Positions 23,086 to 25,134 of a stretch of DNA of 64,000 nt are shown piece by piece; the first letter of the stretch is position 1, and the number at the start of each line of letters is the position of its first letter. The notes beneath the pieces were generated by a model, which was not told the DNA's origin, did no database searches, and saw only the letters and a list, made by a program, of their open reading frames with translations. The position numbers and the translations under genes were made by a program. Source of the stretch: Demequina globuliformis (GTDB taxonomy: Bacteria > Actinomycetota > Actinomycetes > Actinomycetales > Demequinaceae); contig NZ_BBRG01000005.1 of the NCBI RefSeq assembly GCF_000975155.1, forward strand, positions 1 through 64,000. The letters run 5' to 3'.

Positions 23086-24774
23086 CTAGCGTCCGCGGCG
23101 CTGCCCCGTAGCTTCGCGGTCACCCCGACGCGCAGCGACCCACCCGCGATGACGCCCAGCGCCGGCGACGGGGGAACTCCAGGTGCCATCGACGTACAAC
23201 AGTCGTGTCCCTGGCTTCTCCAACCACGCGAGAATGAGCTCCTGTTCCTCAACCAGTGGTGAGTGGAGCTCGAGCGTGTGCTGAGCGCTGCGGAGGTCGT
23301 CCGCGGCGGCCCACACTCCGGACTTGACGCGGCGCGTGCCTGAGAGCGCGCCGCCGACGACCGACACCACGTCCCAGCCGTCGTCGACGCGTCTCACGGC
23401 CACAATGCTGCACGCGGCGAGCGATGCCAACCGCGCCGTGCGCATTGATCCGTCCACGACTGCGCTGATGCGGTCGCGGAGGTCCGCCGCCCTCTCGAAC
23501 TCCTCCGTGAGTGCGAACTCGGCGACATGGTCGGCGAGCGCATTCACTACAGGGGAAACATCGCCGTTCAGAACCTGTTGGACTTGCGCGTGAGTCTGCG
23601 CATAGCCACTGTCCACTCCTTTGATGCACGGGGCTGAACACGCGCCTAGGTCATGGAGAATGCACGCCGTTGCGTGGGGTTTGGGCTGGCGAGGCAGCCG
23701 CGTGCGGCATGAACGGACACCGAGCGATTGCTGGAGAGCTTCGATGGCGAGTTGAGCATCTGACATGGAGCGCATGGGCCCCCAGTGCGTGCCGTCCGAG
23801 GCGCTCGATCGCGACACCACAAGCCGCGGATACGCCTCATCAGTGAGTTTGATCCATGGGGTCCGCTCGGGGTGCGCGGAGCGTCGGTTGTACCGCGGCC
23901 GCCATTGATCGATGAGGCGCACCTCGAGGACCGACGCCTCGAGAGCCGTTGGGCAGACCATGGTGTCGACCGAGACCGCGAGTGACACCATGTCACGTAT
24001 GCGGCCGCGGGTCTCAGCCTTGGTGAAATACGACTTCACTCGCGAGCGAAGATTCTTCGAGGTACCGACGTAGAGGCGTTCGCCGTCTGGGCCGCGAAAC
24101 ACGTACACGCCAGGCTTCGAGGGGACACGGTCGGCCAGCGTGGACTTGGCGCGCACCTCAGGAGGCACCGGCGACTTGAGGGACGCGAGATCCTCACGGT
24201 GGGTGATGCCGAACGCAGCGAGGCGCTCAAGCATGCCGTGGAGAATCTCTCCCGTAGCGCGCGCGTCCTCAAGCGCGCGGTGATTGGGAGTGACCTGGGT
24301 ACCGAAAACGCGCGCGAGGGTGCCGAGCTTCCTATTGGGGGCCTCATCCTTGCTCACGACCCTACGCGCCAAGGTCAGGGTGTCCACTACCTCCACGGCT
24401 GGCCACGCATATCCGTGGGCCTTGCAGGCGGCGCGGAGGAAACCCACGTCAAAGCGTGCATTGTGCGCGACGAGGACGGCATCACCCAAGAACTCAAGGA
24501 AAGCCGGGAGAACCTCCCGGATCCGTGGCGCCGCCATGACCATGGCGTTGGTGATGCCGGTGAGGGCGATGATCATGGGAGGGATAGGCGCCCCTGGGTC
24601 GACAAGGGTCTGAAACTCGCCGATGACCTCACCTCCGCGCATTTTGACAGCGCCGATCTCAGTGATCTCGCACGACGCTGGTGACGCGCCGGTGGTCTCA
24701 AGGTCGACCACCACAAAGGTGGTCGAGGACAGCGGTTCGCCGATGTCCTCGAGAGTCACGCCCGTTGCAGCCAT
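23086..24774 (-). CDS. DEDDh exonuclease / GIY-YIG nuclease fusion (UvrC-like)
   Basis: A 562-residue two-nuclease protein. Residues about 15-180 form a DnaQ/DEDDh 3'-5' exonuclease (VVVDLETTG, VAHNARFDVGFL, NHRALEDARAT). Residues about 215-300 form a GIY-YIG domain (PGVYVFRGPDGERLYVG, RSRVKSYF, ALEASVLEVRLI with the catalytic Glu). A UvrC-like middle follows with CILHDLGACSAPCIKG and a UVR-like helix pair (FALTEEFERAADLRDRI). The RNase-H-like and helix-hairpin-helix parts of true UvrC are absent. Rv2191 of M. tuberculosis has this architecture. Its promoter matches the DNA-damage pattern described at 24,781-24,854, which supports a repair role. Its own upstream TAGCGT gives a leaderless ATG at 24774. 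Confidence 0.9.
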   Translation of the reverse strand: MAATGVTLEDIGEPLSSTTFVVVDLETTGASPASCEITEIGAVKMRGGEVIGEFQTLVDPGAPIPPMIIALTGITNAMVMAAPRIREVLPAFLEFLGDAVLVAHNARFDVGFLRAACKAHGYAWPAVEVVDTLTLARRVVSKDEAPNRKLGTLARVFGTQVTPNHRALEDARATGEILHGMLERLAAFGITHREDLASLKSPVPPEVRAKSTLADRVPSKPGVYVFRGPDGERLYVGTSKNLRSRVKSYFTKAETRGRIRDMVSLAVSVDTMVCPTALEASVLEVRLIDQWRPRYNRRSAHPERTPWIKLTDEAYPRLVVSRSSASDGTHWGPMRSMSDAQLAIEALQQSLGVRSCRTRLPRQPKPHATACILHDLGACSAPCIKGVDSGYAQTHAQVQQVLNGDVSPVVNALADHVAEFALTEEFERAADLRDRISAVVDGSMRTARLASLAACSIVAVRRVDDGWDVVSVVGGALSGTRRVKSGVWAAADDLRSAQHTLELHSPLVEEQELILAWLEKPGTRLLYVDGTWSSPVAGAGRHRGWVAARRGDREATGQRRGR

Positions 24775-24780
24775 GTCCCC

Positions 24781-24854
24781 ACGCTACGTCGGGGGTCTGA
24801 CATTCGGTGTGCGTGCGCCCGCCGTGGGTTCATGTCAGACCCCCTTCTTACGGT
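24781..24854. promoter_or_regulatory. Divergent PafBC-type (RecA-independent DNA-damage) promoter pair
   Basis: A 13-base perfect inverted repeat (GGGGGTCTGACAT 24791-24803 and ATGTCAGACCCCC 24832-24844) places one element before each divergent gene. Plus strand: TGTCAGAC, 8 bases, TACGGT (24849-24854), 7 bases, ATG 24862. Minus strand: TGTCAGAC, 8 bases, TAGCGT (24786-24781), 6 bases, ATG 24774. The known PafBC-dependent consensus is about TTGTCRGTG-N8-TANNNT. Spacing and core TGTCA agree on both sides; the trailing GTG is GAC here. Confidence 0.6.
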
Positions 24855-24861
24855 GGTAGGC

Positions 24862-25134
24862 ATGATCATTGATTGCGATACCTGCGAGGTCCGCGGCAAG
24901 GCCTGCGGTGACTGCGTCGTGTCTTTCTTGACCATCCCGGTGCGGCCTGGCGCCCGCCCCGCGCCAGCGCCACGCGAGTCGCCGACGCCTGACACCTGGA
25001 ACGGAGTGCCCATGGACGCGGATCAGCGCCGTGCGGTCGACCTGTTCGTCGCCGGGGGACTGGTCCCACCGTTGAGGCAAGCGCCCCGCGCGGACGAGCT
25101 CTCAGCACGTCGCCGCCGGCGGCGCGCAAGTTAG
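24862..25134 (+). CDS. Small CxxC-x6-CxxC protein
   Basis: A 90-residue protein beginning MIIDCDTCEVRGKACGDCVV: two CxxC pairs 6 residues apart form a probable zinc knuckle or redox site. The middle is a Pro/Ala-rich linker and the end a short helix (ADQRRAVDLFVAGGLVPPLRQ) with a basic tail (SARRRRRRAS) that could touch nucleic acid. ATG 24862 is favoured over 24832, since 24832 lies inside the inverted repeat. It shares a damage-type divergent promoter with the exonuclease/GIY-YIG gene, so a role in the same response is inferred. Confidence 0.75.
   Translation: MIIDCDTCEVRGKACGDCVVSFLTIPVRPGARPAPAPRESPTPDTWNGVPMDADQRRAVDLFVAGGLVPPLRQAPRADELSARRRRRRAS

Follow-up and report, generated by a model that had tools for sequence, protein, structure and literature searches.

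The 87 nt between two divergent genes of Demequina globuliformis very probably contain two independent, divergently oriented promoters of the predicted PafBC-dependent SigA type, one preceding the gene for a DEDDh/GIY-YIG nuclease and the other the gene for a small four-cysteine protein; this level of confidence applies to the promoters and not to the role of the protein. The window, by which we mean the whole stretch of 64 000 nt analysed here, is part of a 2.62 Mb genome in 8 contigs (G000), and the intergenic region lies between the minus-strand start at 24774 and the plus-strand start at 24862. The features are as follows:

23086–24774, minus strand: DEDDh exonuclease and GIY-YIG (Cho/UvrC N-terminal-like) fusion, 562 aa, Rv2191-type; predicted leaderless, with the transcription start site (TSS) at the A of ATG 24774
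24781–24786, minus strand: -10 element TAGCGT of the nuclease promoter (pattern match)
24791–24803, no strand assigned: left arm of the dyad, GGGGGTCTGACAT; by-product of two divergent motif copies
24797–24802, minus strand: -26 element TGTCAG of the nuclease promoter (pattern match)
24832–24844, no strand assigned: right arm of the dyad, ATGTCAGACCCCC; likewise a by-product of two divergent motif copies
24833–24838, plus strand: -26 element TGTCAG of the small-protein promoter (PafB contact site by analogy; motif as in PMC8151990)
24849–24854, plus strand: -10 element TACGGT of the small-protein promoter (pattern match)
24862–25134, plus strand: gene for the four-cysteine protein, 90 aa (CX2CX6CX2C ... 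GLVPPLR); predicted leaderless, with the TSS at the A of ATG 24862

On the plus strand, positions 24833–24854 read TGTCAGAC-CCCCTTCT-TACGGT, followed by GGTAGGC and ATG 24862, and on the minus strand, positions 24802–24781 read TGTCAGAC-CCCCGACG-TAGCGT, followed by GGGGAC and ATG 24774. Both sites consist of TGTCAG, a ten-base spacer and TANNNT, in agreement with the PafBC motif in the -26 element and in the spacing, and because the motif published for Mycobacterium tuberculosis (TGTCGG, TGTCAG or TGTCAC-N10-TA-N3-T; PMC8151990) includes TGTCAG-N10-TA-N3-T, the match is a full one. An earlier, sequence-only reading of this DNA had proposed two divergent promoters of the PafBC pattern, and the exact match of both sites bears this out. 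Though it was also claimed there that the match was partial, with GAC in place of the GTG that usually follows TGTCR, GAC is a regular form in relatives, as among 132 distinct small-gene sites TGTCR is followed by GTGG in 42 and by GACC in 40. The motif takes GAC, GAG or GTG after TGTCR, and this provides a wider rule for regulon searches outside the mycobacteria. The equal spacing to the two start codons that had been described was off by one base, the gap from the -10 element to the ATG being 7 nt for 24862 and 6 nt for 24774. No LexA SOS box (TCGAAC-N4-GTTCGA) was found nearby, the best 16-mer in 24601–25000 having four mismatches, and regulation as a LexA-controlled SOS gene was set aside.

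The two sites share with the PafBC-dependent (RecA-independent, RecA-NDp) promoters of M. smegmatis and M. tuberculosis the TGTCRG element, the N10 spacer, TANNNT at -10, a start 6–8 nt past the -10 element (predicted, for the window), a cognate pafB-pafC pair and repair genes downstream. They differ in that two of them stand divergently in one 87-bp gap, both predicted to be leaderless, and in the GAC downstream of TGTCR. In mycobacteria, PafBC activated by single-stranded DNA bridges SigA and the -26 element (PMC11804915). By analogy, single-stranded DNA arising from damage would activate the PafB-PafC heterodimer, which would insert between domain 4 of SigA and the DNA, with PafB reading TGTCRG at about -26 and SigA reading TANNNT at -10. 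Each promoter would then give a leaderless mRNA with the A of the start codon as its first base, and the DEDDh/GIY-YIG repair nuclease and the small protein would be co-induced.

Genes for the cognate regulator are present in the same genome. Exactly two WYL-domain genes are present, adjacent to one another and followed by tatC, and in a sequence search of the PDB their products match PafC (7p5x, 9fnd; E 4e-33) and PafB (9fnd, 7p5x; E 7e-32), and both also match the PafBC structure from Arthrobacter (6sj9). When the chance level was judged by reading the pattern backwards, TGTCRG-N10-TANNNT was found at 21 places in the 2.62 Mb, compared to 2 for the reversed pattern. The exact motif lies 6–7 nt before the start codons of polA, uvrB, dnaE and dnaX and 7 nt before that of metK, and other genes directly downstream of a copy encode an OGG-like glycosylase, a cytosine DNA methylase and several proteins of unknown family. 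A variant, TGTCAC-N10-TAGCGT, lies approximately 50 nt before the ATG of recA, TGTCAC being one of the published forms (PMC8151990). Hence, a search for pafB and pafC and a genome-wide scan of the motif, both suggested with the sequence-only reading, yielded one adjacent pair beside tatC and an excess of sites with repair and replication genes downstream, and the PafBC interpretation is supported as far as comparison of sequences can take it.

Most of 38 relatives show an excess of the motif over the reversed control, as in the Demequina genome. One genome in which the search found no PafC (G003) shows no enrichment (11 sites vs 11 reversed), though, as another (G015) is enriched even though no PafC was found there by the search, this contrast is suggestive only. 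In a relative of the same genus, the match to pafC is split over two frames (G384:C1:2336424-2337357) and there is little enrichment (16 vs 9).

Each of the two promoters is conserved in relatives, as found when the divergent region was compared across genomes. In small-gene upstream regions, scanned up to 200 bp, the exact motif in the sense orientation is present in 141 of 169 distinct regions (the species share ancestry, and the counts are not independent). The reversed pattern is absent from all of them, and the mean over dinucleotide shuffles is 0.08. Approximately one-sixth of the regions are without an exact motif, and some of these have a single mismatch or a misplaced start. Of 30 genomes sampled from the class, 23 have the sense motif no more than 300 bp upstream of the nuclease gene. 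The small gene retains its motif in several genomes where the nuclease gene was not found adjacent (e.g. L054, L061, L070 and L046) and in others where it lies approximately 1.5 kb away (L055, L076 and L092).

In 57 of the 141 motif-bearing small-gene loci, the -10 element is separated from the start codon by 6 or 7 nt. When sequences are anchored at the start codon, the only strongly conserved positions are TGTCRG with the bases that directly follow it, TANNNT, and a C at position -1 (1.5 bits at a gap of 7 and 1.2 bits at a gap of 6), and a C precedes both ATGs in the window. Loci with a leader show a smaller C-then-G peak at an equal distance past the -10 element. Given the conserved C before the start codon, the simplest reading is that transcription would begin at the A of the ATG, with a C at -1 and a purine at +1, and that the mRNA would be leaderless.

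The longer of the two genes encodes an exonuclease/GIY-YIG fusion, as had been recognized before, with a DEDDh exonuclease domain at residues 21–178, a GIY-YIG domain at 221–296 and a weak UvrB/UvrC motif. The highest scoring NCBIfam model is NF005907 (730 bits), and UvrC models cover residues 215–441. The gene adjoins trpD and a cytochrome oxidase gene cluster, and the equivalent Mycobacterium gene has the same neighbours, which we take to be the Rv2191 arrangement. The domain order and the neighbours (trpD, ctaE) are shared with the Rv2191/MSMEG_4259-type fusions (NCBIfam PRK07883 family), from which the window nuclease does not differ in any notable way, and it is an ordinary ortholog.

The product of the second gene is the CxxC mini-protein that the sequence-only reading had described, but the family is far wider and more conserved than could be seen from the one sequence. 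A single-sequence search detected it in 58 of the 149 genomes of the order, and a profile search in 167 of the 247 sampled from the class; named carriers include Demequina, Cellulomonas, Actinotalea, Georgenia, Pseudonocardia, Amycolatopsis, Blastococcus, Nocardioides and Microlunatus, the closest named relatives being from Demequina and Cellulomonas. Of 165 distinct members, 161 show the CX2CX6CX2C spacing and 151 contain exactly four cysteines, and a GLVPPLR motif lies in the C-terminal half. Presence of the small protein goes with that of the nuclease (83 of 100 genomes with the nuclease vs 3 of 18 without; Fisher p 8e-8, without correction for ancestry). Most members (132 of 165) end in G, A or S, mostly as -AG or -AS (25126–25131 in the window), and this end could be a degradation tag.

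No significant match for the small protein was obtained in Pfam, NCBIfam, PHROGs, PADLOC or the PDB. The collections of phage, plasmid and viral contigs also held no match, and an origin from any of these was discarded. Weak matches to PF10576, the Fe-S loop of endonuclease III, and to DnaX were considered too marginal to define its family, since for PF10576 only four of 36 members were involved, with E ~0.002 at best. The four closely spaced invariant cysteines are shared with C4 metal-binding mini-proteins, such as zinc knuckles and the endonuclease III loop. However, the spacing in endonuclease III is CX6CX2CX5C and not CX2CX6CX2C, and relative to the C4 mini-proteins there is no match of family or fold and the metal is only predicted. 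Two AlphaFold runs were of low confidence (mean pLDDT 75 and 69), and Foldseek with the first model (pLDDT 75) returned no usable fold match. Our guess is that the protein probably binds metal, as zinc or Fe-S, and assists DNA repair in actinobacteria as an accessory factor.

Actinobacterial genes often have leaderless starts, and some matches to the motif precede housekeeping genes such as metK, so that the two sites could be seen as ordinary SigA promoters of leaderless genes, with TGTCRG as a general upstream element that does not mark PafBC control. We regard this as improbable. A -35 element needs a spacing of 16–18 bp, and the N10 spacer therefore rules out TGTCRG in that capacity. The motif also has only some 20 copies per genome, many of them preceding genes of repair and replication, and the lack of enrichment in G003 points the same way. 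An alternative in which ClgR or another regulator is the main reader of the motif, as was once proposed for the mycobacterial P1 promoter, is very improbable; recognition of the P1 motif by ClgR was reported (discussed in PMC5656591), but binding sites and structures studied later assign it to PafBC (reviewed in PMC8223512; PMC11804915), and pafB-pafC is present in the Demequina genome.

The 13 bases shared by the two motif copies produce a perfect inverted repeat, and no such dyad arose when the bases of the 87-nt intergenic region were shuffled 1000 times. It might be supposed that a dimeric repressor or activator of both genes uses this repeat as its operator and that the resemblance to PafBC sites is incidental, but there is very little chance that this is so. 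Across 56 divergent promoter pairs from the window and relatives, the copies mostly share only 4–9 bases in register and their 5'-ends lie 2 to 170 bp apart, whereas the two motifs persist in their orientations, each with its -10 element, and a single copy is retained where the small gene and the nuclease gene stand apart. Hence, of the dyad as originally described, the perfect 13-bp repeat stands but its standing as a conserved or functional unit does not, and it is a by-product of two similar divergent promoters. Finally, the small ORF might be a spurious or passenger reading frame beside a true PafBC target, the nuclease promoter, given its small size and the lack of a name for it in Pfam and NCBIfam. 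The presence of the family in 167 of the 247 class genomes sampled, the near-constant cysteine spacing and the retention of the small-gene motif where the nuclease is elsewhere make this hardly credible.

The arrangement extends to Mycobacterium (family f22, genus g67; assigned on the basis of up to 41 PPE genes), where the small gene and the nuclease gene again diverge, each behind a motif of its own, and an Rv2190c-like gene lies downstream of the small gene. At two Mycobacterium loci (L234:4074-4340 and L235 near 4179), it lies between an Rv2191-like nuclease gene and an Rv2190c-like gene of the NlpC type. The mycobacterial form, with 62 residues, is easily missed in annotation and may be unannotated in the reference strains. 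We take MSMEG_4259 of M. smegmatis to be the neighbour of ctaE and, thus, the probable ortholog of the window nuclease. This gene, annotated as a DNA polymerase III epsilon subunit, is upregulated (log2 1.78) together with recA, recF and ruvC when overexpression of the regulator MSMEG_6762 damages DNA (PMC9416677). In M. tuberculosis, a cloning primer located approximately 500 bp upstream of Rv2190c contains TGTCGG-N10-TA (PMC3432046), at the place where the promoter of the small gene would lie. The main texts of two papers on small mycobacterial proteins do not include the small protein, and it, like MSMEG_4259, may have been listed earlier as a PafBC target.

Both promoters are of the known PafBC type, and the small-protein family is nameless in the libraries searched. 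The conservation of both promoters across the class makes the small protein a strong new candidate for a part in the actinobacterial damage response, and the locus points to a family that accompanies a repair nuclease and whose PafBC-type promoter has been retained in a large part of the class. Most damage-induced genes in mycobacteria are under PafBC control, and many PafBC targets there have, to our knowledge, no known role. We tentatively suggest, as a possibility that we rate below even, that the small protein is an unrecognized core component of the PafBC response, encoded in mycobacteria between the genes for the Rv2191-like nuclease and the Rv2190c-like protein, and that it serves the DEDDh/GIY-YIG nuclease or repair replication as a dedicated partner or regulator that binds metal. 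Because the family reaches the mycobacteria, a direct test is feasible with the existing M. smegmatis tools.

Several further sites in the Demequina genome were recorded. Those of metK, dnaX, dnaE and polA are at G000:C7:212878 (L011), C8:917601 (L017), C8:81381 (L012) and C7:87337 (L007), respectively, and with the exact motif 6–7 nt before their start codons, core replication genes and S-adenosylmethionine synthesis (metK) may here be damage-induced and leaderless. A second divergent pair of motifs, 8 bp apart (G000:C8:265972-266023; L013/L014), is flanked by a gene for a 154-aa protein of unknown family (6 nt gap) and one for an OGG-like 8-oxoguanine glycosylase (PF21790). A further copy (G000:C7:155267-155288; L010) lies 6 nt before an ORF of 69 aa without known family, possibly another leaderless damage-response mini-protein.
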